From contig JAGVCD010000371.1 of assembly GCA_020059425.1 (NCBI GenBank), positions 1-52,500 of the forward strand: DNA of 52,500 nt, given 5' to 3'. The notes beneath the pieces are model-generated. The model was not told where the DNA came from. It saw only the letters and a list, made by a program, of their open reading frames with translations, and searched no databases. Below are positions 1 to 52,500 of this stretch, one piece after another (the first letter of the stretch is position 1; every line of letters begins with the position of its first letter). The position numbers and the translations under genes are program-made. The stretch is from Chamaesiphon sp. Lineage in GTDB: Bacteria; Cyanobacteriota; Cyanobacteriia; Cyanobacteriales; Chamaesiphonaceae.

Positions 1-99
1 ACCCGCCAACCTCGCCGGCAAGACGCAAGCTGAGATTATCCAACTGGCTAGCGACTACCTCCAAGTTCGCGAGACTGCCGCTAAGCAGATGCCCACACT
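1..99. repeat. Left terminal inverted repeat
   Basis: The first 99 bases are identical to the reverse complement of the last 99 bases (52402-52500). Base 100 is the first mismatch, after which the copies remain alignable at lower identity through a coding region. The cut at exactly 99 bases could be a k-mer overlap left by an assembler at a repeat, or the visible part of a longer terminal inverted repeat of a linear replicon. Confidence 0.95.
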
Positions 100-385
100 A
101 ATTACAATCCTTGACCACCTCGCCGATCCTTCCAGCGTACAAGAGGCTACAGACTGGTTTACCGCTAAATCTTGGCTGCATTCCAATGGCTACAGCCTGA
201 AAATGAACCCACGACAAAAGCGGCACTTCTACCGCGCGATCGCTGATTGCCACCGTTTCCTCACCATTGCTCAACCACAGAAGCACTCTGGCATCAACTA
301 TTACAACAACCTCCACCACATTCTGTTCGCAGCCTGTGCTGACAACACAGTCAAGCTGGTACGTCCCACTATCCCTTTTGTCTAA
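2..385 (+). CDS. Unknown protein, 3' part of gene (5' end off the window)
   Basis: An open frame enters from the left edge without a start and ends at 385 (127 codons visible). I do not recognise the family. The visible part is mostly polar and helical-looking, with a PTLITILDHLADPSS segment near visible residue 30. A diverged copy sits inverted at the right edge (52305-52499). Most differences between the copies past base 99 fall at third codon positions, so both evolved as coding sequence. The gene is followed by a hairpin-T-tract terminator. An internal ATG at 89 gives a 98-aa version, but the frame is open upstream and conserved in both copies, so a start outside the window is more likely. 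Confidence 0.7.
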   Translation, partial: PANLAGKTQAEIIQLASDYLQVRETAAKQMPTLITILDHLADPSSVQEATDWFTAKSWLHSNGYSLKMNPRQKRHFYRAIADCHRFLTIAQPQKHSGINYYNNLHHILFAACADNTVKLVRPTIPFV

Positions 386-6100: not shown

Positions 6101-6161
6101 GTCGCCTATGTACAGTAGGTTGACTGCCGACGGTGAGGGGTGTTTGCTGCACCCTGTCGGC
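6101..6161 (-). promoter_or_regulatory. Structured mRNA leader with 4-7-4 hairpin
   Basis: On the minus strand: outer stem GCCGAC/GTCGGC (6126-6131 with 6156-6161) enclosing GGGTG, a 7-nt loop CAGCAAA and CACCC; then a linker; then CCTA-CTGTACA-TAGG (6105-6119), four bases before the ATG. This is one of nine such hairpins in the window. Confidence 0.65.
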
Positions 6162-6191
6162 TAATACTCCTATTATACACCATATCCAAAC

Positions 6192-13205: not shown

Positions 13206-13311
13206 TACTGGACAGGGCATCAAAACTGTGTATGCTGGAAGAGTGCCGCGAGGGATAGCGCAAACTACCCCATTACCAGCGACACTTTACCCACATCAGA
13301 GATTACCTGAC
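13206..13311 (+). promoter_or_regulatory. Promoter and structured leader with 4-7-4 hairpin
   Basis: TGGACA, 16 bp, TATGCT forms a promoter-like pair ending near 13236. The leader has GTGT (13228) and GCTGG (13234) pairing with CCAGC (13276) and ACAC (13282). Inside is GGG-A-TAG / CTACCC with a CGCAAA loop. The 15-nt hairpin TCAG-AGATTAC-CTGA (13296-13310) lies one base before the ATG. Confidence 0.55.
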
Positions 13312-15285: not shown

Positions 15286-15304
15286 AATTTGAAATATTTT
15301 AATC

Positions 15305-15341
15305 TTATCCTGTTGACACAGGATAGGGCTTGTAGTAGGAT
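15305..15341 (+). promoter_or_regulatory. Promoter with 22-bp operator (copy 3)
   Basis: TTATCC (15305), ten bases, GGATAG (to 15326). TTGACA at 15313-15318 lies in the operator's centre, with a 17-bp spacer and TAGGAT (15336-15341). Repressor binding would block the -35 box. The transcript leads to the 240-aa gene at 15371, with ACCACCAAAGGA before its start. Confidence 0.8.
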
Positions 15342-15370
15342 ATAGAAACAACCACCAAAGGAATAATTAT

Positions 15371-17734: not shown

Positions 17735-17815
17735 ACCCATGATACAATACAAGAATGGCCACAGCGGTATTCGACTACCCTGGGGCCTGGTTAACCTAGT
17801 CTTAGTAGGATCAAC
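17735..17815 (+). promoter_or_regulatory. Leader with 4-7-4 hairpin
   Basis: TACAAT lies near 17741. GGTA-TTCGAC-TACC forms an inner hairpin, enclosed by GGCC arms. CCTA-GTCTTAG-TAGG (17795-17809) lies six bases before the ATG at 17816. Confidence 0.5.
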
Positions 17816-18508
17816 ATGAACATTGTACTCGATACATACCTTTTTGACGCGCTGCAAGCTGAACTTGAAGGCGTAAAATTTTCAATTGATTTTGATGTAG
17901 TTTGGGAAACATACGGATTTAGCAAGTTTTTCAATGCCCGCAAGTACATCAAGAAAAACGCTGAAATCCTTATTGCGCTTGGCTTGCTCCAAGTGGAATC
18001 GAAAAATATCAATCAACCCGAATTAGATAAATATTACTTATGCCTGAAAGGGTACAAGTTTTCTTTAGCGCGTGCCAAAACTCAAGAAGGTGCGGAATAT
18101 TTGTTGCACCTTTTAGATATTGAAGAGAGGTTTGTAGCAACACTTAACCACCAACTAGCAGCCCCCGCCTATACTGCCCCCACATTCAGCTACCCGATCG
18201 CACAACTCCAAGCGATCGCCAACTACTGCACCCTTGCCTACACCAAAGCCGCCATCCGCCGCGATTACGTGGAAGGCCTGCACTACGTGATGGTCGGTTC
18301 CGAGATGATGCTCAGCGAAATCTGTTTTGGGTTGACGGTCAATGCCAGCCGATCGCGGGCGGGTGTCGATCTGGAAAATTGCCCAGACATCCAAATCAGC
18401 ATCCGAGATGCGATCGCCCACCACAACGCCAAAGCTGCCAACAAGCAGAATGCACGGCTAACCAGGCAATCGGAATGTCCGGGCCAGTTGAGTTTTGCAC
18501 TTGGCTAA
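17816..18508 (+). CDS. Rha/KilA-type antirepressor-like regulator, 230 aa
   Basis: The N-terminal domain SIDFDVVWETYGFSKFFNARKYIKKN then KYYLCLKGYKFSLARAKTQEGAEYL (about 23-90) resembles the DNA-binding part of phage antirepressors of the AntA/Rha sort. A Pro/Ala linker leads to a second domain (115-210) with TKAAIRRDYVEGLHYVM and NCPDIQISIRDAIAHHNAKAA. The basic tail ends in GQLSFALG. It is placed as a plus-strand cassette between the two minus-strand baseplate genes. Confidence 0.6.
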   Translation: MNIVLDTYLFDALQAELEGVKFSIDFDVVWETYGFSKFFNARKYIKKNAEILIALGLLQVESKNINQPELDKYYLCLKGYKFSLARAKTQEGAEYLLHLLDIEERFVATLNHQLAAPAYTAPTFSYPIAQLQAIANYCTLAYTKAAIRRDYVEGLHYVMVGSEMMLSEICFGLTVNASRSRAGVDLENCPDIQISIRDAIAHHNAKAANKQNARLTRQSECPGQLSFALG

Positions 18509-18520
18509 AAAAATTTAACC

Positions 18521-18557
18521 TTGTCCTGATGACACAGGATAAGGCTTGTAGTAGGAT
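18521..18557 (+). promoter_or_regulatory. Promoter with 22-bp operator (copy 4)
   Basis: TTGTCC (18521), ten bases, GGATAA (to 18542). ATGACA at 18529-18534, a 17-bp spacer and TAGGAT at 18552-18557. About 50 of 60 bases match the copy 3 promoter and leader, including ACCACCAAAGGA before the start, so the two arose by duplication or strong co-selection. Confidence 0.8.
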
Positions 18558-18585
18558 AAAGACAACCACCAAAGGAGACAAAATC

Positions 18586-21082: not shown

Positions 21083-21157
21083 GAATTAGGATACGCAATC
21101 GCATTGGTGATTCAGACCATGCGATCGCTGACCAGCAAACCTACCTTTTCTAGGCTG
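21083..21157 (+). promoter_or_regulatory. Promoter and leader with 4-7-4 hairpin
   Basis: TAGAAT (21081-21086) preceded by TGTAG resembles other cassette promoters here. ATCGCA-T-TGGT (from 21098) pairs with ACCA-TGCGAT (to 21125) around a 7-nt loop GATTCAG. CCTA-CCTTTTC-TAGG (21140-21154) is three bases before the ATG at 21158. Confidence 0.55.
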
Positions 21158-21450
21158 ATGGCTAAAAATATTGTAGCAAAAGATTTCGTGTTCAACTCCG
21201 ACCGTACCCACGCAAAGCTGTCCAAGCGTGGTGTTACCAGCTTGTTGAAAATTTCTCACACCGCAGTTAACAAGGTTTTGCAAGGTGGAAACCTGTTTAC
21301 TGATTTAGAGCTTGAAACCATTGAAGTAGAAGGGTTTGAGGGTGGAAACCTGATTAAGCTAATCAAGCATTTTGCTACATCCGCCAAGACAAAACCAGAA
21401 ACCAAACTTCATTGTTGGGTTGATTGCTGAAATAATTTCCTTGGACAGAG

Positions 21451-21622: not shown

Positions 21623-21651
21623 TTGACGTACTCATTTAATATGCGTATAAT
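21623..21651 (+). promoter_or_regulatory. tnpB promoter
   Basis: TTGACG (21623-21628), 17-bp spacer, TATAAT (21646-21651), 25 bp before the ATG. CTCATT and AATGAG flank the spacer as a likely operator. Confidence 0.7.
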
Positions 21652-21676
21652 GAGAGTAGCACAGAAAAAAGGAAAT

Positions 21677-22804
21677 ATGCTACTCAGTTTCAAGACAGAA
21701 TTAAAGCCTAATAACAAACAGGTAACTCTATTCCGTCAGCATTGTGGAGTAGCCCGACACGCTTACAATTTTGGCAATGCTGTTATTCAGGAAGTTTTGC
21801 AACTCAGAGAGACTGACAAGACTGTTAAAATTCCCTCTGCTATTGACTTGCACAAACGGCTAGTTGCTGAGATTAAACCAGCAAATCCCTGGTATTATCA
21901 AAGCTCCAAAGCAAGTCCACAACAGGCTTTAGCAGAGGTGAGGACGGCGTGGGATAGATGCTTTAAAAAAATCTCTAAACAGCCTAGATTCAAGAAAAAA
22001 GGCAAGTCTAAGGACAGTTTCTATCTAGAGCAAGGAACCAAAGCAAAACCCGGTATCAGCAATGATGGTAAGCGTGTTAAACTTCCTAAAATTGGATGGG
22101 TGCGACTTCATGAACCTCTCCCGATCACGGCTACTCATAACTGCGTGATTAGTCGCACTGCGGACAAATGGTTCATAGCTATTAAGTATGAAATTGAACA
22201 GCCTCCAATACCTCTAGACCGCCCCTCTATTGGCGTTGATATTGGTATCAAAGAATTGGCTGTTACCAGTGACAAGAAAGTTTTTGCTAACCCAAAAGCT
22301 TATCGCAAAATGAGTAAGAAAATGAAGCGATTGCAGCGTTCTGTTAGTCGCAAAGTTAAAGGCTCAAAAAACAGAACCAAGGCAGTCAGGAAGCTAGCTA
22401 AACTGCATTCTCGCATCTCGTTTATCCGCAAAGATGCTATTCATAAACTCACAAATTATCTCGTTAAAAACCACAGCGTGATTAAAATTGAGGATTTGAG
22501 TATCAAAGCATTTTTGAAAAATCACAAATTAGCTGGTGCAATTGCAGATTGTGGAATGTACGAATTTAAGCGTCAACTAGAATACAAGACTGAAAAGTTT
22601 TCTAGTCAGCTAGTATTAGTTGACCGCTTCTTTCCTAGTTCGCAGATTTGCTCAAATTGTGGAAATCACCGACACAAAATGCCATTAAAAAACCGCGTTT
22701 ATCACTGTCCTGAGTGCGGACACACAGAGGACAGAGACTTGAACGCAGCTAAGAACATCCAACGATGGTTTGAAGGAATATTTATTCCGATTCGTTCAGA
22801 CTGA
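21677..22804 (+). CDS. tnpB: TnpB RNA-guided endonuclease
   Basis: 375 aa, a normal length. RuvC-like catalytic residues are all present: D188 in VDIGIKELAV, E272 in IKIEDLS and D354 in DRDLNAAKNI. The zinc finger is intact (C325, C328, C344, C347; CSNCGNH and CPECGHT). TnpB proteins are RNA-guided DNA nucleases that use an omega RNA from the element's right end; here that region is 22800-22920. Start at 21677 has AAAAAAGGAAA upstream. All key residues are kept, so it is probably active. The guide would be read from sequence just past the right end, that is, from the interrupted antirepressor gene. Confidence 0.93.
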   Translation: MLLSFKTELKPNNKQVTLFRQHCGVARHAYNFGNAVIQEVLQLRETDKTVKIPSAIDLHKRLVAEIKPANPWYYQSSKASPQQALAEVRTAWDRCFKKISKQPRFKKKGKSKDSFYLEQGTKAKPGISNDGKRVKLPKIGWVRLHEPLPITATHNCVISRTADKWFIAIKYEIEQPPIPLDRPSIGVDIGIKELAVTSDKKVFANPKAYRKMSKKMKRLQRSVSRKVKGSKNRTKAVRKLAKLHSRISFIRKDAIHKLTNYLVKNHSVIKIEDLSIKAFLKNHKLAGAIADCGMYEFKRQLEYKTEKFSSQLVLVDRFFPSSQICSNCGNHRHKMPLKNRVYHCPECGHTEDRDLNAAKNIQRWFEGIFIPIRSD

Positions 22805-22920: not shown

Positions 22921-23400
22921 TGTCTAACTTTGTCTAAGTCTTATAGAGCGGATCTGTTTGAGAAAATGGCAGAGATGGGCGCTCAACTTTTTATCGACAG
23001 CCTTGCCGGAGTCAGCCCCACACAACAACAATTGCCGTGTCGCATTTTAGATAATGCAGCGGTATGGGAACGGCTTTATGACAAAGCTTTTTGCGATTGT
23101 ATTTTTGACTGGTTTGGCGCACAGTTTTATTGGGATTTTGTTTATTGCTTCTTGACCCCGATTGAAATCTGTCGCCTCAACGAAGTGAACCCAGTTATTA
23201 AAGGAGATCGCCGATACCGCATTCACCAATTTCTACAGCCTGAAACGCGCGATCGATTAGTCCCCTACGTTCGCGAGTTGATAGCCATTTGCAACGCCTC
23301 TGAGGACAAGCAACAGTTCCTCAATGGTTATCAACGCCATTTCAACAAAAATAACCAGTTGAAACTCAACTTCTAACCCCATTACAATTTGTAACAAAGT

Positions 23401-30042: not shown

Positions 30043-30819
30043 CTACATTAAAGTCAGTTGAGAAATTCCCTCAAAGTGTTTTTGATAGCCAGTTAGAAAC
30101 AGTTGTTTGTCTTCACCTGCTGTGTTCACAATGGCTATTAATTGCCAAACGTGAGGTGCTAATCGCTGCTTTGTGTCTTCCTCTAAATATTGGTGGATTC
30201 GGTACTTGCGGTTGCCTTTAATGGCTGGATTTATTTGGTCTAACTTACACCGTTCGACTGGAGTTAAAAAGCAATAGCAAAAAATCCAGTAAAATTGCGG
30301 GCCGTACCATTTAAAAACTTGTCGGCAAAAGTCAGTTTCATAAAGCTTAGACCACGGGTTAGGCGTATCCAATATTCGACTGAGTTGCTTGTGGGCTGCG
30401 GGGGCTGCGGTGTATTGTTCGGGTAGCCAGCCTGTTTGAGTTTGGATGTAAGACTCCGAACCTTTCCGACCAAACAAGCGATAAGTAGCAAGAGCTTGCT
30501 TTGTTGTTTTCTTAGCATCATGAGCAAAATAATCCGCGAAACAAGCCCAGCATTCGCTAGTGTAGATTTTGATATTTTTCCATTTTGCCTGACACTGAAT
30601 ATCTTGTCCTAGCAAAGGTTTCAGCGATTCTGGCAAGTCTGAGCCTGACACTGATTTTTGAACTTTGGCAGCCAAAGCAGAAATGCTTTCTTTAGACACT
30701 CCAAGACTTCTAGCCATGCCAGTGCCTGAAAGCCCTGATCGACCCGTCGCCTTAATTGTGAAATATTCTACGCCGTCACGCTCAACGCGCACAATCGCGT
30801 TATCATTGCTGTTAGCCAT
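30043..30819 (-). CDS. Antirepressor-like protein with P63C-like C-terminus, 258 aa
   Basis: Start at 30819, next to the conserved leader hairpin (a TTG at 30861 is less likely). The N-terminal module AIVRVERDGVEYFTIKATGR then GLSGTGMARSLGVSKESISA (about 8-50) is a helix-turn-helix-like region shared with the gene at 35558. The middle has GSESYIQTQTGWLPEQY. The C-terminal domain (QFYWIFCYCFLTPVERCKL, RKYRIHQYLEEDTKQRLAPH, then a final helix) resembles the P63C group and pairs with the end of the split gene at 22921-23376. It is inserted antisense between the tail chaperone and tape measure. Confidence 0.65.
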   Translation of the reverse strand: MANSNDNAIVRVERDGVEYFTIKATGRSGLSGTGMARSLGVSKESISALAAKVQKSVSGSDLPESLKPLLGQDIQCQAKWKNIKIYTSECWACFADYFAHDAKKTTKQALATYRLFGRKGSESYIQTQTGWLPEQYTAAPAAHKQLSRILDTPNPWSKLYETDFCRQVFKWYGPQFYWIFCYCFLTPVERCKLDQINPAIKGNRKYRIHQYLEEDTKQRLAPHVWQLIAIVNTAGEDKQLFLTGYQKHFEGISQLTLM

Positions 30820-30905
30820 GTTCCTAGTCCTTTTAGGTATGTGGTTAGCCACCTTGTTCAAGGGGGGCGCGGGCGGTTAAGTGGGCTGTTAGTCGCAGCC
30901 CTGTC
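30820..30905 (-). promoter_or_regulatory. Leader with 4-7-4 hairpin
   Basis: Minus strand: GGGCTG and CAGCCC (30883-30888 with 30896-30901) around a 7-nt loop CGACTAA, then GTGG-CTAA-CCAC, then CCTA-AAAGGAC-TAGG (30823-30837) three bases before the ATG. The second loop contains the ribosome-binding AAAGGA. Confidence 0.6.
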
Positions 30906-30928: not shown

Positions 30929-33900
30929 ATGGCCGACACTCAGGTAAAAATCTTAATCACCGCGATCGACGATGCAAGTCGAGTATTCCGCGATGTGCTA
31001 GACAACAGTGACTCAATGGCTAGCAAGCTGATGACCGCTGGTGATACTTTTGAGACAATGGGTAACGCGGTAAAGGATTTTACGCGACCATTATCAAGAG
31101 GATTAAATGCTAGTAAAGATGCTGCTATTGGTTTCGAGTCAGAGATGGCAGAAGTAGCCAAAACGACTGGCTTTTCTGCTAAGCAAGTAGCGCAAGTTGG
31201 TGCTGTCACCAAGCAGTTATCGCGTGAAATTCCAATGACTGTTTCCGGGCTAAATAATATAGCAGTTGCCGCTGGACAGTCAGGGATTGCGCTTAAAGAT
31301 ACTAAGGGATTTATCAAAGATGTGAGCAAGGCTGCCACTGCTTTTTATGCAGGTGGAAGTGCTAAAGAAATGGAGGCGGGTGCTGAAAAGGCAGCATTGG
31401 CTTTTGGTAAACTTACCAATGTTTTCGGAATCCCTATTAGGGATGTAAATACTCTTGCAGCGGCTATTAATGTACTTGGAGATAGTTCGATCGCATCAGA
31501 AAAGGACATTCTAAATGCAATGACCCGGACGGCTGGGCTAGGTGTGCAGGCTAAAATGTCTGCAAAAGATTTAGCTGCTTTAAATGCTTCAATGATTAGT
31601 TTAGGGATGGCTCCAAGCGTAGCAGCAACCGCTACAAACGCATTGCTTTCCAGGCTAACCACAGCAGAAATACAATCGGCTAGATTTCAGAAAGGATTAG
31701 AAATGATTGGAATCTCTGCATCCGAAATGCAGAATCTCGTGCAAAGTGGAGGTAACAATGCCATCTTTGCCTTAAGTAATGCCTTGGACAAACTAGATCC
31801 TGTGAATCGAGCCAAAGCAATCGGTCAGATGTTTGGCGCTGAGCATAGTGATAATGTTGGTATTTTCCTGGAAAGGATTAACGTTTACAAGGATTTATTA
31901 GGTTCGGTTGCTAACGATCAGTCGAACTTGAATCGCTACAATAAAGTGTTTGAAGCGCAACTGAACACAACCGCTTCACAGTTGCAAATCCTTAACAATT
32001 CTTTTAAGGAATTAGCCGTCGAAATAGGGACAGCTTTACTGCCTGCTGTTCGAGCTTTTGTCAAGTTCCTCACCCCAATAATTCACGGGATTACAGCGTT
32101 TGTCAAAAAGCACCCCTGGCTAGTAAAAATTGGGGCCGCTTTAGTAGGTATAGCTGCTGCTGCGGGATCTACTTTGTTGGCAATGGCTGCACTAAGCCGA
32201 ATTTGGGGAGGGCTTAGCGCAGGAATACCGATCCTTTCTCAATTAAGTAATAGATTTTTAGGCGTAGGGCATCCCATATCCAAGATGCTTAATTGGCTAG
32301 CACAAGCCAACCAAAGATTAATTGGAGTTGGTGAAGCTTCTGAAGGAATCAAGCTTCCCAAAGTAGGGAAGTTGCCGACTGTTAAAGAATGTTTGCCAGT
32401 TTGTATTTGCCCTAAGATTTGTGCTGGATTTGAGGCAAAATTAAAGGCGCTTGTAGCCAAATTAGATTTGTGTATTCCCATCTGTATTTGCCCTGATGAT
32501 TGCGGAGATGGCAAGAAAAAAAGGCGCAAGAAAAAACCACCGGGAGATGACGATAAAGGGCCACCAGATACACCAGATACACCATTGCCAGGTGGTGATG
32601 CCTTACCAGTGGCTAAAGAGGTTCCCGCTTTACCAGTCGCGACGGAAATTCTTGCTTTACCCCCGGCTAAGGGTTTACCTGCTTTACCCCCAGCCAAAGC
32701 TTTACCTGCTTTGCCACCTGCAAAAGATTTAGTTGAGGGCAAGGGGGAAACTCCCAATACTTTAAAAAACAATGTAGTGGCACTTACCACTGCGTTAATT
32801 GGTGCTACGTCGGCAATCAACAAACTTGCAATACCTGCGAAAACACCCGCAGCCGTGCCTGTAACTTCTCCGGTAGATCTGGCAACACAAACAGCTTTGA
32901 TACAGCAACAAGCAGCCGAAAAGCTGGGGATTACCCAGCTAGAAAATGCCGAGAAACTATCAACATTTACGCAAGCAAATCAAGCTGCTGAAATAGCCAC
33001 AGCAGACAAGATTGCAGCGGGTAAATTGCTTGCACAACAAGCATCAAACCAACTGGCTACCCAACAACTGCAAACCCAACTAGCAGCCCAAAAAGCGGCT
33101 GCTGCAATTGAAACTGAGAAAGCGCGATCGATTGCCCAGCAGCAAGTCGCCGCCACTGCAACCCAGTCGATGATGCAGGCCGCCACCAAGTCTCACACCG
33201 CAGTAACTGATGTTGCGGGTGCTCAGCAAGTGGGAATGCAGCAGAATATTGCAGCCCAGCAAGTAGCAGCGACTCAACTAAAAGCAGATGCCGATCGCAG
33301 GCAAGCGCAGGAAGAAGCAGCCCAAAAAGCGGCAATTGCTGCTGAGGAAAAAAGGCAGGAAGCTGCGAAAATTGCTGCTGAGAAAAAAGCGGAAGAGGAT
33401 CGAAATTTTGTACCGGTTGAAGATTCCGAGGGGCCGACACGCTCTGAAATGCGATCGCAACCAGCACAAAAATCTGGTGGCGGTATTGGCGGTTTCGTGA
33501 AAAATGCAGCTTTGCTTGGAGCTGGTGCTGTTGGATTGGGTGGCGTTGCTTATGCTGTTTCTAAAGTTGCAGGGGGTTTGGGCGGTGTTGTCGGTGGGCT
33601 GGTGAATGCAACTAAAGCGGTAGCCGGAACTGTTAGCGGTGTGTCTGGCGCAATTTCTAAAGGAAATGCTATAGCCAGAGGTGCGGGTGAGGTTGCAGGC
33701 GGTGCAATCGGTACAGGTGTTAGAGGAATCGGGGCCGCAAGTTCTGTGGCCAGAGGTGCGGGTGAGGTTGCAGGCAGTTCGATCGGCGGGGTAATAAAAA
33801 GCTACGGGGCGGTGATGGATGCTGCCAAAAATTCAGGTGCTGCTGTCGGGCAAGCGATGGGTAGCGCTATAAAAGGCACTCAATCGCTTTCAGCAGCAGC

Positions 33901-34879
33901 TAACTCGGCTGGTAGTGGCATTGCTGGAGCTTTTGGTAAAGCAGGGTCTTCAATAGCAGGTAGTGCAGCAAAAGTTGGGCAAGCCGCTACGGGTGCGGTG
34001 GCAAATACCGCAACCGCACTGCAAAAAGTACAAAAAGCAGCATCCGTAACAGGGACTGCAATGAAAGGTGCTAGCGGGGCGATCGGAAGCGTGCTTGCAC
34101 CTGCAAAGACCGGGACGGCGGGTCTGCTGTCGGGATTGGGCAACTCGGTATCGGGAATTGCTAGCGGGGCGAAAGGGGCAATTTCTAGTGCAGCTACTGC
34201 TGCGAGCAAGTTTGCAGCGTCGCCTGCAAGTAAATTGATTTTACCTGTGGCTACCAGTGCCGCCGGGGCTGCGGGTGCTGCACAGATAGCCGGTAGTACA
34301 GAGCCGCCCGCAACTCCCATGCCCAAAAATGCGATCGCTAAATTTACCAGGCCGAGTTCGCCAGCAGAGACTACGCCTGCATCTGAATTAGCCAGTCAGT
34401 CGGCTGCGGTTGCCCAAAATAATATCGTGCCGCTGGTTAGATCGAGCAAGGAAAGCGGCAAAGCAATTGCTGGGGAATTAGCCAAAGGGATAGAGGAAAG
34501 CAAGCCACAGGCAGAATTAGCAGCCGCTGGTTTGGCTCAATCTGTAAGTTCGTATTTACCTCGATCGCCCGCAGAAAAAGGGCCGCTTTCTAACCTAGAT
34601 CAAACTGGGTTTGGATTGACTCAAGAATTTATTAAGGGCATTGACGGCAGTGCGATTCAAAATAAGTTTGAAGAGGTGATGAATCCGCCGTCAAAGTTTG
34701 CGGGTGTAGACATGGGCGGTAGTGGTGGCAATAGTTCCAGTAATGCGGTGTACTCGCCAACTTACAATCTTTCCGGTACACCACCTGAGAATTTTATTGC
34801 TGAATTGGAGAAGCACGATCGCAAGTTTATTGAGTGGTTGCAGCAGACTCAGGAACGATTTAATCGGGGGAGATATTAG
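30929..34879 (+). CDS. Tail tape measure protein
   Basis: 1316 aa, the longest gene. The N-terminal half matches the phage tape-measure family: FESEMAEVAKTTGFSAKQVA (about 65-85), VSGLNNIAVAAGQSGI, AAAINVLGDSSIASEKDIL and FGAEHSDNVGIFLERINVYK (about 310-330). Residues about 390-420 are hydrophobic. Residues 485-525 hold two copies of a C-x-P-x-C-I-C-P-x2-C motif, followed by a basic run and Leu-Pro-Ala repeats. Residues 650-850 are Gln/Ala-rich coiled coil, and 855-1130 Gly/Ala-rich. It sets tail length and enters the host on infection. The Cys motifs are not usual for the family. Confidence 0.88.
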   Translation: MADTQVKILITAIDDASRVFRDVLDNSDSMASKLMTAGDTFETMGNAVKDFTRPLSRGLNASKDAAIGFESEMAEVAKTTGFSAKQVAQVGAVTKQLSREIPMTVSGLNNIAVAAGQSGIALKDTKGFIKDVSKAATAFYAGGSAKEMEAGAEKAALAFGKLTNVFGIPIRDVNTLAAAINVLGDSSIASEKDILNAMTRTAGLGVQAKMSAKDLAALNASMISLGMAPSVAATATNALLSRLTTAEIQSARFQKGLEMIGISASEMQNLVQSGGNNAIFALSNALDKLDPVNRAKAIGQMFGAEHSDNVGIFLERINVYKDLLGSVANDQSNLNRYNKVFEAQLNTTASQLQILNNSFKELAVEIGTALLPAVRAFVKFLTPIIHGITAFVKKHPWLVKIGAALVGIAAAAGSTLLAMAALSRIWGGLSAGIPILSQLSNRFLGVGHPISKMLNWLAQANQRLIGVGEASEGIKLPKVGKLPTVKECLPVCICPKICAGFEAKLKALVAKLDLCIPICICPDDCGDGKKKRRKKKPPGDDDKGPPDTPDTPLPGGDALPVAKEVPALPVATEILALPPAKGLPALPPAKALPALPPAKDLVEGKGETPNTLKNNVVALTTALIGATSAINKLAIPAKTPAAVPVTSPVDLATQTALIQQQAAEKLGITQLENAEKLSTFTQANQAAEIATADKIAAGKLLAQQASNQLATQQLQTQLAAQKAAAAIETEKARSIAQQQVAATATQSMMQAATKSHTAVTDVAGAQQVGMQQNIAAQQVAATQLKADADRRQAQEEAAQKAAIAAEEKRQEAAKIAAEKKAEEDRNFVPVEDSEGPTRSEMRSQPAQKSGGGIGGFVKNAALLGAGAVGLGGVAYAVSKVAGGLGGVVGGLVNATKAVAGTVSGVSGAISKGNAIARGAGEVAGGAIGTGVRGIGAASSVARGAGEVAGSSIGGVIKSYGAVMDAAKNSGAAVGQAMGSAIKGTQSLSAAANSAGSGIAGAFGKAGSSIAGSAAKVGQAATGAVANTATALQKVQKAASVTGTAMKGASGAIGSVLAPAKTGTAGLLSGLGNSVSGIASGAKGAISSAATAASKFAASPASKLILPVATSAAGAAGAAQIAGSTEPPATPMPKNAIAKFTRPSSPAETTPASELASQSAAVAQNNIVPLVRSSKESGKAIAGELAKGIEESKPQAELAAAGLAQSVSSYLPRSPAEKGPLSNLDQTGFGLTQEFIKGIDGSAIQNKFEEVMNPPSKFAGVDMGGSGGNSSSNAVYSPTYNLSGTPPENFIAELEKHDRKFIEWLQQTQERFNRGRY

Positions 34880-34967: not shown

Positions 34968-35558
34968 TAACTTAAATCAAGTTCAATTTGAATGGCATCG
35001 CCAAAGCGGTTTCGCATCAATTGCCAGAATTGAAACTCAGAGAAAGACACTTTCAAAAGCGTTCCAATTTCGTCAATATGACGCTGTAACAAAGTTTCGT
35101 CAACGTCGGGTGAAAAGTGTTCGTATGCGATCGATCGCGCTGCGGGCTATTTGGGATGCTTGGTATTGTTCGGGTAGCCAGCCTGTTACGCCGTGAATAT
35201 AGCTGGTTAGACCAATAACCCCGGTAAGTTGATCTATTTCTTGCGCTTGCTCGGAACCCGAATAAGCATAGTGTTTGATAACTGCTGAGCAAAAACTAGC
35301 GTTATAGACGATCGCACCTGCGCCGCGCTTTCCAGTTCTGACGATTTCAGTAATCAATTTCAAATCCTTACCTACAAAGGATTGCAGCCACTTTGAAGGC
35401 GATTTGGTAATCAATTGTTTTTCAAGTTTCAGTATTGCTGGGTTTGTTACTCCACAGGCCCGTGCTAGCCCGCGTTGGCTCATACCTGATTCACCTGTGG
35501 CTACTAGCGTGTAATACTCAACGCCGTCACGCTTGACACGCAAAATGCTATTATTCAT
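34967..35558 (-). pseudogene. Antirepressor-like gene frameshifted by a 4-bp GATC insertion
   Basis: From the ATG at 35558 the frame runs to a stop at 35100 (152 aa), with an N-terminal module (ILRVKRDGVEYYTLVATGES, MSQRGLARACGV) matching the 30819 gene and GWLPEQYQASQIARSAI further on. At 35127-35138 a HIP1 site reads GCGATCGATCGC instead of GCGATCGC. Removing one GATC restores the frame as AIAYEHFSPDVDETLLQRHI and on to WQLMRNRFGDAIQIELDLS, which matches the end of the 40551 gene (WRHMSNHFGNAIQLEIDL). The intact protein would be 195 aa. The 152-aa product may still be made. Confidence 0.8.
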
Positions 35559-35613
35559 GTGTTGACCTGCTAACTAGGTTGACCATGCCGCTGGATCGTA
35601 AGTCCGAGCGGCA
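35559..35613 (-). promoter_or_regulatory. Leader with 4-7-4 hairpin
   Basis: Minus strand: TGCCGCT/AGCGGCA (35586-35592 with 35607-35613) enclosing GGA-CTTACGA-TCC (7-nt loop), then ACCT-AGTTAGC-AGGT (35565-35579) six bases before the ATG. Conserved although the gene itself is frameshifted. Confidence 0.6.
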
Positions 35614-39568: not shown

Positions 39569-40020
39569 AAGGAATGAACGAATGGATAAGAGATATAAAT
39601 GCTAATCCGCAAAAACTTGCTAGGTTTACTATGTTAAGAATAGTCCAAGATTGGTGCAAGGATTTAAACAATATTCCACACGGAATTATTAGGGGAATAT
39701 TGTTTAGTGGCGACAGATTTACTTGCTGCGATGAGGCAGTTATAGCTTACGATAACGATACTTTTGTCGGCATTGCAACTATCTCATTTAAAGGCGAAGA
39801 TTACAGCGGTAAACCAGAGGTTGTAGGGCTGTATGTTGTCCCCGCGTTTCGATGTAAGGGGTATGGGTTTATGCTGCTGAAAGATGCAATTTTGCGGTGT
39901 TTGGATGCGGGCGATCGCGTTCAGGTTGTGGCGGTTAGCGCAAACGTGGATCGCTTGTGGAGAAATTGCCGGAATCTATCAGGGCTAAGGTGGATTTTTC
40001 TGATTGCAGTTTGGGGCTAA
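39565..40020 (+). CDS. GNAT-family acetyltransferase-like protein, 151 aa
   Basis: The segment TFVGIATISFK, then VVGLYVVPAFRCKGYGFMLL, gives the GNAT acetyl-CoA binding motif A (R-x-x-G-x-G/A pattern as RCKGYGF, about residues 101-107). Start overlaps the previous stop by 4 bp. The last 25 residues (LWRNCRNLSGLRWIFLIAVW) look unlike a GNAT end. Another frame from about 39956 continues as VEKLPESIRAKVDFSDCSLG, which looks more natural, so a one-base loss near 39953 is possible. Substrate unknown. Confidence 0.6.
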   Translation: MKGMNEWIRDINANPQKLARFTMLRIVQDWCKDLNNIPHGIIRGILFSGDRFTCCDEAVIAYDNDTFVGIATISFKGEDYSGKPEVVGLYVVPAFRCKGYGFMLLKDAILRCLDAGDRVQVVAVSANVDRLWRNCRNLSGLRWIFLIAVWG

Positions 40021-40044
40021 ATTTGATAGATTCCTGATTTTTGT

Positions 40045-40131
40045 TATTGGGTGTGGTAGTATAGATACAGGCAAGGTCGTTGCAAGCGACCTCTTTTCAG
40101 CCTGTATCAACCAAATCAGAGGAAACCTGAC
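40045..40131 (+). promoter_or_regulatory. Promoter and two-domain structured leader
   Basis: TAGTATAGAT near 40058 is the -10 region. GATACAGGC (40064-40072) pairs with GCCTGTATC (40100-40108), enclosing AGGTCG-TTGCAAG-CGACCT (7-nt loop). TCAG-AGGAAAC-CTGA (40116-40130) lies one base before the ATG at 40132. This is the most stable example of the leader family. Confidence 0.7.
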
Positions 40132-40377
40132 ATGGCTAACAATATTATAGCAACAGACAATGACAACTTTGCAGTCGTTTTTAATGTTCGACTGATAATG
40201 TTTGACTATTTCAAAAAATCATGGTTTTGTGTCTACGAACAAGATGAGGTTTATGTTGTTCCCCCGGAAAAACAATATTGGGATGGAAAAACTTTTCTGC
40301 TCAGAGAATCTTACGAAGAAGATGGAAAAACTTTTTTGATTTATCATCCTGAGGTAGATAGTTTTTACCTTAGCTAA
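40132..40377 (+). CDS. Hypothetical protein, 81 aa, with conserved leader
   Basis: Starts MANNIIATDNDNFAVVFNVR, like other genes in this leader family that begin MAN or MAK. Aromatic-rich with a repeat (YWDGKTFLL and EDGKTFLIY). No family recognised. It sits alone between its structured leader and a large terminator-like palindrome, like an inserted cassette. Confidence 0.55.
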   Translation: MANNIIATDNDNFAVVFNVRLIMFDYFKKSWFCVYEQDEVYVVPPEKQYWDGKTFLLRESYEEDGKTFLIYHPEVDSFYLS

Positions 40378-40382
40378 ATCTA

Positions 40383-40447
40383 ACCAAATTTTAGTAAACA
40401 AACCCACTAATTCCAATAATTAGCGGGTTTGTTTACTAAAATTTGGT
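40383..40447. terminator. Long palindrome acting as terminator
   Basis: A 23-bp perfect inverted repeat (40383-40405 with 40425-40447) is extended inside by CTAATT/AATTAG, giving a 65-bp near-palindrome. Its core AAACCC...GGGTTTGTTT resembles the terminator at 41365-41400, so bidirectional termination is likely. The right arm runs into the next promoter (TATAAT at 40450-40455). Confidence 0.7.
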
Positions 40448-40550
40448 GTATAATACAAAATACGGGCAAAAGGGCGTGCGACCGCCCCGATATCAACCCG
40501 CCTCTCCCTTCAGTAAGGAGAGTGACCACAAATCAGAGGATACCTGAATC
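40448..40550 (+). promoter_or_regulatory. Promoter and structured leader with 4-7-4 hairpin
   Basis: TATAAT near 40450. GGGCG/CGCCC hairpin, then CTCTCC (40502-40507), loop CTTCAGTAA, GGAGAG (40517-40522), linker TGACCACAAA, then TCAG-AGGATAC-CTGA (40533-40547) three bases before the ATG. The 41476 gene has the same arrangement with different stem bases (GGCTCC/GGAGCC and TTAG/CTAA). Confidence 0.7.
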
Positions 40551-41360
40551 ATGGCTAACAACAGTTTAGAAGTTTTTCGCACATCTATCAAGCTCGGCAG
40601 TATCGAGATTGATGCGTACACAGCGCATCAAAAAGATGAGCATGGTCGCTGGATTAATTACCTCAGTGGTGCGGGAATGGCGACAAGTATTAAATTACAC
40701 AGAAATACCACGTTACAAAATCGGATGTCTGAAGAGCTAAAAGCTTTACTGGGGAAGGACTTTACCACGTTACAAGGCAAATATCGCAACAGCCAAAATT
40801 CTTTTTCTAAGGTTGAGCTTTGGACAACAAGCCAAGCTCCAAAATATTGGCGGTATCACGATCGAAAGGGGAACCAAATTGCTGGACTGATTATTGATGC
40901 TTTAACTGGGGTGAGTCTTGACGCTATCATCAACGATCGCTTCAAGCGAACCTACTCGCTAGGAAGCACCGAGCAATGGGTTAACCAAATTATCAACAAA
41001 ACACCTGATACCGACCGCCCTGTTCATTTCAATAAAGACTGGCAAAAAGAAGCAACCCGCGTCACTGGGCATCATTGGCAAGGATTGGCGATGGCTAACT
41101 TCATTCATCGCGCAGTCTACAAAATGTTTGGTTCTGCGGTGCAAAAACGCTTAAATGAGGTCAACCCCTATGGCGATTCTGGAGTGCGTCGCGACGCTTT
41201 GCATTATCAGTTTTTCGTTACTAATGCTGACGAGAAATTGGTGCGAGCACAAATCCAGACAACTTACACCTTGCTTAAAATAAGTGCTTGCGAAAGTGAT
41301 TTTTGGAGGCACATGAGCAATCACTTTGGCAACGCAATTCAGCTAGAAATTGACCTCTAA
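40551..41360 (+). CDS. Antirepressor-like protein with P63C-like C-terminus, 269 aa
   Basis: The N-terminal half has GSIEIDAYTAHQKDEHGRWI, then LSGAGMATSIKLHRNTTLQN, related in layout to the module of the 30819 gene. The middle has GLIIDALTGVSLDAIINDRF. The C-terminal domain (FGSAVQKRLNEVNPYGDSGV, RRDALHYQFFVTNADEKLVR and an end in WRHMSNHFGNAIQLEIDL) resembles the P63C group. The N-terminal-DNA-binding plus P63C layout is known in phage and plasmid regulators, but the molecular role is unclear. The first gene of a run with Bet next. Confidence 0.65.
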   Translation: MANNSLEVFRTSIKLGSIEIDAYTAHQKDEHGRWINYLSGAGMATSIKLHRNTTLQNRMSEELKALLGKDFTTLQGKYRNSQNSFSKVELWTTSQAPKYWRYHDRKGNQIAGLIIDALTGVSLDAIINDRFKRTYSLGSTEQWVNQIINKTPDTDRPVHFNKDWQKEATRVTGHHWQGLAMANFIHRAVYKMFGSAVQKRLNEVNPYGDSGVRRDALHYQFFVTNADEKLVRAQIQTTYTLLKISACESDFWRHMSNHFGNAIQLEIDL

Positions 41361-41364
41361 AAAT

Positions 41365-41400
41365 AACCCGCCAATTTTAATAATTGGCGGGTTTCTTTTT
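41365..41400. terminator. Rho-independent terminator
   Basis: AACCCGCCAATT and AATTGGCGGGTT form a 12-bp stem, followed by TCTTTTT. It ends the 40551 transcript. Confidence 0.85.
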
Positions 41401-41409
41401 GAGGGTGTA

Positions 41410-41475
41410 GTATAATAAGGATAGAACGGCTCCCTTGAGTAAGGAGCCTGACCACAAATTAGAGATTACCTAATC
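41410..41475 (+). promoter_or_regulatory. Promoter and structured leader of the bet operon
   Basis: TATAAT near 41411 after GTGTAG. GGCTCC (41428-41433), loop CTTGAGTAA, GGAGCC (41443-41448), linker TGACCACAAA, then TTAG-AGATTAC-CTAA (41459-41473) two bases before the ATG. Both stems covary with those of the 40551 leader. Confidence 0.7.
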
Positions 41476-42231
41476 ATGGCTAGCAACAATACTATCACGG
41501 TAGTCGCGCATCCACAGTACAGCAGCGACCAAATTGAGCTAATTAAGCGCACCATCTGCATGGGTGCAACAGACGACGAACTGGCTATGTTTGCCAGTAT
41601 TTGTAACCGTACCGGGCTAGACCCATTTGCCCGCCAAATCTACGCAATCAAGCGCTGGAATAGCCAATTGAGAAAGGAAGTGATGAGCTTCCAAGTATCG
41701 ATCGATGGCTTTCGGATTATTGCCCTTCGCAGCGGTCAATATGCAGGGCAATTAGGGCCGTTTTGGTGTGGTGAAGATGGGGCATGGATTGATTGCTGGT
41801 TAAAACCTACACCACCCCTAGCAGCTAAAGTTGGGGTGTTGAGGCATGATTTCAAAGAGCCTGTTTGGGGTGTGGCTAAATTTGATAGCTACTGCCAAAA
41901 AAACAAAGATGGTTCGCTAAGCTCAATGTGGGCAAAGATGAGTGATTTAATGCTAGCTAAGTGTGCGGAAGCTCAGGCACTTCGTAAAGCTTTTCCACAA
42001 GATTTATCGGGATTGTATACACCCGATGAAATGGCACAAGCCGACAATCCGCAAGCAGTTTACAGTCAATGGAAAACTGCATCTGATGCAATCGATTGGG
42101 CAGTTAAGGAAACTGGATTAGAGCGTGAGTGGCTAGAATCAGAGTTTGCTGCTTTGCCCGAAGTAAATGGCAAAAAAGCGGTGGCATGGGTTAGTTTCAT
42201 CGGCAGTTGTGCGAAGGGGGCGGTATGGTAA
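41476..42231 (+). CDS. bet: Bet (RecT/Red-beta family) single-strand annealing recombinase
   Basis: 251 aa. The sequence [20 protein letters not shown], then [40 protein letters not shown] and [20 protein letters not shown] is the Red-beta family core in full. The C-terminal 60 residues are the partner-binding part. It anneals complementary single strands in phage replication and recombination. No SSB was recognised; the DEDDy exonuclease at 6237-7085 is a possible partner. It overlaps the next gene by 7 bp. Confidence 0.9.
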
Positions 42232-52304: not shown

Positions 52305-52499
52305 TTATCCTGAGTTGTGGGATAGCCACGACTTAGCAGTAAACCAGCCCGTAACTGGTTGTGCGCTCGAAGGATCGGCGAGGTGGTCAAGGATAGTTAG
52401 GAGTGTGGGCATCTGCTTAGCGGCAGTCTCGCGAACTTGGAGGTAGTCGCTAGCCAGTTGGATAATCTCAGCTTGCGTCTTGCCGGCGAGGTTGGCGGG
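52305..52499 (-). pseudogene. Shortened copy of the left-edge gene (5' end off the window)
   Basis: The frame enters from the right edge and ends at 52305 after 64 codons. It matches the left-edge protein (PTLLTILDHLADPSS, TGWFTAKSWL) but ends SHNSG-stop and runs straight into the shared terminator. Compared with the left copy it lacks about 200 bp encoding the last 60 residues. It may be a truncated relic or a short isoform. Confidence 0.6.
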
Positions 52500-52500
52500 T
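52402..52500. repeat. Right terminal inverted repeat
   Basis: Exact reverse complement of bases 1-99. Joined end to end with the left end it would form a perfect 198-bp palindrome. Confidence 0.95.

Follow-up and report, generated by a model that had tools for sequence, protein, structure and literature searches.

Directly before the start codons of nine genes in a cyanobacterial virus record stands a hairpin whose shape is constant and whose sequence is not, and the question this raises is whether it controls the expression of those genes, and at what level. The window (here the whole 52.5-kb stretch of DNA that was analysed) is a virus record with genes for a major head protein, tail sheath, tape measure, baseplate and terminase. 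A fixed-shape, variable-sequence hairpin of this kind before regulator-like genes of cyanobacterial viruses most likely controls their translation, to judge from the model developed below.

The P2 hairpins and the genes that follow them

An earlier note on this DNA had reported nine 15-nt hairpins, and all nine are present, with four-base-pair stems that are Watson-Crick throughout, loops of exactly 7 nt and the ATG 1–6 nt further on. They are termed P2 here, and the genes bearing them lie on both strands:

6105..6119, minus strand, P2 hairpin CCTA-7-TAGG, 4 nt 5′ of ATG 6100
13296..13310, plus strand, P2 hairpin TCAG-7-CTGA, 1 nt 5′ of ATG 13312; predicted weakly in context (0.07)
17795..17809, plus strand, P2 hairpin CCTA-7-TAGG, 6 nt 5′ of ATG 17816
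21140..21154, plus strand, P2 hairpin CCTA-7-TAGG, 3 nt 5′ of ATG 21158
30823..30837, minus strand, P2 hairpin CCTA-7-TAGG, 3 nt 5′ of ATG 30819
35565..35579, minus strand, P2 hairpin ACCT-7-AGGT, 6 nt 5′ of ATG 35558
40116..40130, plus strand, P2 hairpin TCAG-7-CTGA, 1 nt 5′ of ATG 40132
40533..40547, plus strand, P2 hairpin TCAG-7-CTGA, 3 nt 5′ of ATG 40551
41459..41473, plus strand, P2 hairpin TTAG-7-CTAA with a fifth outer A-T pair, 2 nt 5′ of ATG 41476

Three of the genes served can be described from their products or relatives:

30043..30819, minus strand, Nostoc relatives named P63C domain-containing proteins
40551..41360, plus strand, phrog_2384 (unknown function) matched weakly; P63C present in distant relatives
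41476..42231, plus strand, RecT/Bet-type single-strand annealing protein (PF03837, E 7e-35)

The last bears out the suggestion that one of the genes is bet. The description of most of the others as antirepressor-like is fair for the members of P63C, KilA-N or HTH type, but at E ≤ 1e-3 neither Pfam nor PHROG gives a match for six of the nine proteins of the window, and phrog_2384 is matched weakly by two of the nine. Among genes served elsewhere, KilA-N is found in L173:7977 and P63C in L140:2067 and L139:13477, while the family resembling the 35558 gene, with ten members, has P63C in four and HTH_3 in five (E ≤ 0.01).

Several features of the setting may be recorded here. The P2 cassettes 30043–30819 and 35100–35558, both on the minus strand, flank the tape-measure gene (30929–34879), which is on the opposite strand, a moron-like arrangement. 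A TnpB-like transposase ORF (phrog_506, 21623–22804) splits another P2 cassette gene into halves at 21158–21430 and 22930–23376, to which an uninterrupted relative, P0012, has 69% and 78% identity. The ends of the window (1–177 and 52324–52500) form an inverted terminal repeat of 177 nt, 92% complementary, which suggests either a near-complete linear genome or a feature of the assembly. A second repeated upstream element (15292–15346 and 18508–18562, 87% identical) precedes other genes and, by eye, is without a 4-7-4 hairpin, that is four pairs, a 7-nt loop and four pairs.

Occurrence relative to chance

Whether such hairpins are as common before other ATGs of the window was the doubt that the earlier note raised against its own proposal, and it is dispelled only in part. 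Under a loose criterion (a 4-7-4 ending 0–7 nt before any ATG, on either strand) there are 72 matches at the 1,266 ATGs of the window, so that 4-7-4 hairpins before arbitrary ATGs are not rare. However, at first-ATG ORFs of at least 60 aa the 7-nt loop is the most frequent, occurring at 10 of 94 (eight of the ten being the listed genes), against two to six for each of the loop lengths 3–6 and 8–12. The excess within the window alone is modest, and it is the related leaders that decide. A 7-nt loop precedes 38 of 719 ORFs of related loci (16–27 for other loop lengths) and 32 of 575 ORFs of five related contigs (7–21 for others). When alternative starts are also counted (up to three per frame, at distances of 0–13 nt, in twelve contigs with 3,238 candidate starts) the signal is diluted, 245 against 169–246; with a −10 box required in the same count it is 80 against 36–62.

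The clean test uses genes chosen by protein homology alone, namely homologs of the nine window genes in cyanobacterial viral and genome contigs. The 51 non-redundant leaders, in which a single gene (L085) is represented by two starts, include 22 with a 4-7-4 that ends 1–7 nt before the start. At 0–13 nt the number is 26 of 51, where shuffles that preserve base composition only lead to an expectation of 3.0 and other loop lengths give 0–5. With the window excluded 17 of 42 have it, and with its two close relatives also excluded 13 of 38, for which P is about 1e-7, a value that like the other enrichment P values is too optimistic because the leaders are related to one another. This is the comparison with homologous leaders on which the earlier claim was to stand or fall, and it stands. 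A perfect 4-7-4 is missing in 25 of the 51, including most of those in Nostoc-type genome contigs; a 4-7-4 containing a G-U pair is present in only two of the 51, with 4.6 expected.

Covariation and the composite leader

Enrichment thus rests on leaders chosen by homology. Covariation rests on two other comparisons, flank-anchored pairs and an alignment of eight leaders, since in the hand-picked list considered later the stems are paired by selection. The flank-anchored comparison takes leaders that agree to at least 70% in the flanks beyond the hairpin, which gives 16 pairs, some with a leader in common. Where stem pairs have changed, 11 are double changes that stay Watson-Crick and four are breaks; three of the four breaks are in Nostoc-type genome contigs, as is one of the 11 compensatory changes.

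The alignment of eight leaders is free of gaps along its 46 nt, which comprise an upstream hairpin, P1, of 6 bp with a 9-nt loop, a linker of 10 nt in which ACCACA is invariant (TRACCACA in the alignment) and which joins P1 to P2, and P2 itself. In this alignment 96.3% of cells are paired, the three unpaired of 80 being all in P1; double changes occur at eight of the ten pairs, and no single-sided or G-U change is seen in either helix. The covariation score was reached by none of 500 shuffles, and slid controls are 32–46% paired. The earlier observation that the stems differ while their pairing is kept is therefore confirmed by both comparisons.

The earlier reading covered only half of the leader, for P1, the conserved linker and a promoter-like box also belong to the element. 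In the window these are:

6126..6161, minus strand, P1-type hairpin GCCGAC...GTCGGC, 6100 leader; predicted fold, letters
17757..17787, plus strand, P1-type hairpin with mismatches, 17816 leader; by eye, predicted fold
21095..21128, plus strand, P1-type hairpin, 21158 leader; by eye, predicted fold
30848..30868, minus strand, P1 hairpin with one mismatch, then linker TAACCACATA, 30819 leader; covariation, model match, letters
35586..35613, minus strand, P1-type hairpin TGCCGCT...AGCGGCA, 35558 leader; predicted fold, letters
40064..40108, plus strand, P1-type hairpin GATACAGGC...GCCTGTATC, 40132 leader; predicted fold, letters
40502..40522, plus strand, P1 hairpin CTCTCC-9-GGAGAG, then linker TGACCACAAA, 40551 leader; covariation, model match, letters
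41428..41448, plus strand, P1 hairpin GGCTCC-9-GGAGCC, 41476 leader; covariation, model match, letters
6172..6177, minus strand, TATAAT box, 6100 leader; consensus match
40449..40454, plus strand, TATAAT box, 40551 leader; consensus match
41411..41416, plus strand, TATAAT box, 41476 leader; consensus match

In Nostoc-type genome contigs the linker before P63C genes (L075, L077, L078, L080, L084, L086) is related, and in L075, L077, L084 and L086 it is CTAACCACAA; by eye, P2 is reduced to a 3-bp version in some of these Nostoc-type P63C leaders.

The window leader 30819 and L129:12750 have P1 and linker in common, with P2 being CCTA/TAGG in one and TCAG/CTGA in the other and the genes being different, so that in this cassette exchange recombination seems to have fallen within the leader. 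An integron attC-like or other recombination site, which that comparison brought to mind, was rejected, since copies within one genome do not have the same 7-nt centre.

Anatomy of 41 leaders

Leaders were first hand-picked by leader-like context (39); L104 was then dropped and L193 added, and L222:12382 and L223:4089 brought the list to 41. Near-identical copies (L128:2840, L129:1499, L129:4614, L176:16655) were left out, and the doubtful members L139:68, L074 and L140:2067 were retained. The 41 have 14 different stems, CCTA being found most often (16). In the loop, 38 have a purine at position 6 and 36 have C or G at position 7, compared with 50% and 42% in 4,133 random 4-7-4s, and 12 have T at position 2. 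A Watson-Crick pair across the loop ends occurs in none of the 41 leaders and in 1,145 of 4,103 controls (28%). A fifth outer pair accompanies five of nine weak stems (at most one G-C pair) and two of 30 strong ones (Fisher P 0.004), which is what selection for a stable hairpin would lead to.

P2 ends 1–8 nt before the ATG in 38 of the 41. Its distance to the ATG has a median of 5 nt and an s.d. of 2.8; relative to the −10-like box the s.d. is 15. A box with at most one mismatch from TATAAT is upstream in 36 of 41 (background 712 of 3,238), though part of the list was chosen by that box. The placement of the Shine-Dalgarno sequence within P2 counts for little, the range searched being nearly the same as P2.

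The predicted stability of the P2 stem has a median of −1.2 kcal/mol (range −3.9 to +2.0). In leader context a pairing probability of at least 0.5 is predicted for 29 of 41, and for 185 of 540 4-7-4s taken from elsewhere as controls; 13312, L140:2067, L139:68 and L074 are predicted not to form P2. A third helix, beside P1 and P2, may be possible from the letters, in which NCA of the linker would pair with the start codon and next base (UGN). This fits 24 of 39 leaders (14.3 by permutation) and, outside the ATGGCT group, 12 of 27 against 7.5, and is contradicted by several, for instance L145:9312 and L172:1098.

Further members

A covariance model, R1, was built on the P1–P2 block of the eight leaders, the ATG forming no part of it. 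Over 1.1 Mb of loci its own members score at least 58.6 bits and everything else at most 16.1 bits. The window leaders 40132 and 13312 score 14.9 and 12.8 bits, so the P1–P2 block is one subclass of leaders. In 118 Calothrix-family genomes there is some match at E ≤ 1 in 114 and three matches are strong, two being Calothrix leaders already known. The third (48.8 bits, the next best of all being 26.2) is in genome G414. The covariance-model search that the earlier note had recommended thus yielded one further leader, with an ATG 2 nt past P2, a TCTA/TAGA stem that was new to the model and a fifth T-A pair. By eye the gene behind it is similar to the 13312 family. Baseplate, head-protease and major-head genes in the 40 kb around the leader mark the region as a prophage; two more leaders in the same 40 kb have a CGTA/TACG stem and the linker AACCATAAA.

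In 28 weaker R1 loci (L194–L221, central 150 nt, both strands) a 4-7-4 precedes some ATG in six. One chromosomal copy, L214 (1430–1620, minus strand), has P1, a AACCACAT linker and a TTTG/CAAA 4-7-4 in register, with a frame after the ATG that by eye is nine codons long; it is either a leader remnant or chance.

Exact patterns returned little. The pattern AGAGNNWACCTRA...ATGG matched 71 stretches of IMG/VR, where only L011 (two matches) was related, as judged by eye on 40 nt upstream; L015, whose leader looks similar, was set aside since its surrounding 5 kb is by eye an unrelated prophage. Of 16 stretches matching CCTTSAGNAAGG...GACCACA one is genuine by eye, and it is a known Calothrix leader. 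A search of 386 cyanobacterial genomes with a pattern of this kind gave one match, again the leader already known, and the P1–P2 form seems rare in the genomes searched. A protein search for close relatives of 40551 found none, and a scan with the alignment of its family (A5) found three loci, all in contigs already in the set. Plasmid-borne P63C homologs account for 29 records.

Proposed mechanism and its alternatives

The geometry of P2, its covariation, its link to the ATG, its presence in other phages and its predicted folding are the ground for the preferred reading, to which a probability of about 0.6 is given: P2 acts in cis as a translational operator that covers the ribosome site, its shape probably read by a trans factor. 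The place of P2 follows the ATG and not the box, and it coincides with the Shine-Dalgarno position; from this, together with the predicted folding, translation is the likely level of control. In the model each cassette gene would have its own TATAAT-type promoter, giving a leader of roughly 50–110 nt (with the transcription start sites inferred). From its upstream end the leader would consist of the folded P1, an unpaired linker rich in A and C (in many cases TRACCACA) and the 15-nt P2, which would occupy the Shine-Dalgarno position and in most leaders end 1–8 nt from the AUG. Closed P2 would keep the 30S subunit off the ribosome site. A trans-acting factor (a phage or host protein, possibly an RNA) would read the shape of P2, so that many unrelated cassette genes could respond together. 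We infer the effect on translation, its direction and the existence of such a factor.

A factor is suggested by the fixed 4/7 geometry, by loops that no fifth pair closes from inside and by the preference for a purine at loop position 6 and for C or G at position 7. A 4-bp stem with a median of −1.2 kcal/mol would be a poor switch alone, and the exact geometry across unrelated genes, with a loop left unclosed, speaks for a factor that reads shape; structure conserved beyond the needs of stability, as in protein-bound operators, is what the constant 4-7-4 with inner Watson-Crick closure in none of 41 presents. Counting against the operator model are the 25 of 51 leaders without a perfect 4-7-4, the weakness of P2, the instances predicted to stay unformed and the low R1 scores of other leaders of the window. 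The stronger proposal, a shape-coded RNA regulon in which a single phage or host factor reads the 4-7-4 geometry alone and switches unrelated antirepressor-like cassettes together, is tentative, and has perhaps less chance of being right than of being wrong.

The alternative that survives best, unlikely as it is, is that P2 is a DNA operator, an inverted repeat bound as duplex by the HTH/KilA-N-type proteins of the cassettes for transcriptional autoregulation, with half-sites specific to each protein. Its half-sites are 11 bp apart, about one helical turn; G-U pairs are absent, which counts against an RNA helix since some would be expected; several products are DNA-binding-like (the KilA-N of L173:7977, weak HTH_3 in 5 of the 10 members of the family resembling the 35558 gene); and the single stem CCTA is dominant. 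However, the repeat is at the ATG, about 40–100 bp past the −10-like box, and not at the promoter. The stem letters vary while the geometry is constant, the fifth pair tends to compensate weak stems, and the recT cassette also carries the hairpin. CCTA-N7-TAGG has 28 copies in 847 kb, of which 20 are beside an ATG and the other eight do not exceed chance (12 expected in all). Neither a conserved half-site nor copies at promoters were found, there being 14 stems in 41 leaders, and it is as a set of cassette-specific operators that this reading could yet hold.

Also improbable, and next in order, is that P2 is an intrinsic mask of the ribosome binding site, setting a low constant translation or keeping the site from other pairings, with no trans factor. 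Its place at the Shine-Dalgarno position agrees with this, and translation-lowering structures at phage initiation regions are known (PMC3014915), but stability alone needs neither exactly 4 bp and 7 nt, nor an unclosed loop, nor a purine at loop position 6.

An RNA thermometer, in which P2 would melt on warming and open the ribosome site, is very improbable. A short weak hairpin over that site would suit it, but predicted pairing, far from being lost in the physiological range, is nearly steady between 15 °C (median 0.86) and 50 °C (0.71), and the identified genes served are regulator-like or recT, with no heat-shock genes. Equally disfavoured is chance with shared ancestry, that is a few related leaders from one inherited sequence and short stems that are easily found: the loose count of 72 matches and the unremarkable 7-nt loop over all 3,238 candidate starts speak for it, but the diversity of stems, the two-sided stem changes where the flanks agree and the enrichment for genes picked by homology alone are against it. 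CsrA recognizes GGA in loops, and many P2 loops are without GGA, so recognition of that type was rejected.

As to novelty, the earlier note had called the hairpin an undescribed translational control element. A conserved, covarying structure at the ribosome site is indeed present, and it is matched by no Rfam family: release 15 gave no match for the whole window at the gathering threshold and, for 39900–41700, 14 sub-threshold matches, none covering a P2. No description of the element came up among the open-access papers listed by literature searches, which does not prove its absence. The translational role is probable, to judge from the ATG-tied place and predicted folding. If it is geometry and not sequence that is kept across unrelated genes and phages, P2 would mark a regulon that plain sequence comparison misses. 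It would then show which moron-like cassettes are co-controlled, provide a compact part for reporters and allow a direct search for its reader.

Comparison with known systems

The E. coli thrS operator is a mimic of the anticodon arm, with a hairpin of 7-nt loop before the start codon, and tRNA anticodon loops have a purine at position 6, loop ends without a Watson-Crick pair, U at position 2 and a 5-bp stem. P2 is like both in its 7-nt loop, the purine at position 6 and the unpaired loop ends. It differs from the thrS operator in having no conserved U at position 2 (12 of 41), a 4-bp stem and served genes that show no sign of a link to tRNA synthetases. The conserved U in the second place of the loop and the 5-bp stem by which an anticodon-arm mimic would be recognized are lacking.

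Translational control of antirepressors at the ribosome site is exerted by the antisense RNAs c4 (phages P1 and P7) and sar (P22) (PMC12197685). These act by trans-RNA complementarity, and P2 sequences seem too diverse to be matched by a single antisense RNA. A single trans factor acting on many phage initiation regions, as proposed for P2, is known in T4 RegA. Its sites are described without RNA structure (PMC3014915), whereas structure is what marks P2.

In the T4/RB69 gene 43 operator a phage protein binds a hairpin of 16–18 bases together with a sequence that covers the ribosome site (PMC3014915), and that hairpin is small, as P2 is. However, it stands some 40 bases upstream, T4 and RB69 share its top 10 bases and one gene is autoregulated, while P2 is at the AUG, variable in sequence and before many genes.

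RNA helices mask the ribosome sites of T4 e, soc, 49 and I-TevI and of Aeh1 mobE (PMC3014915). Like them, P2 is by position and predicted pairing a helix over the Shine-Dalgarno sequence and/or the AUG. Structures in the initiation regions of T4 genes 38 and 25 are reported to improve translation (PMC3014915), so that the sign of the P2 effect could go either way. In that account the T4 and Aeh1 hairpins are described gene by gene, whereas P2 has one geometry with varying sequence in many unrelated cassettes and phages, and in one subclass has, unlike them, P1 and a conserved linker in addition.
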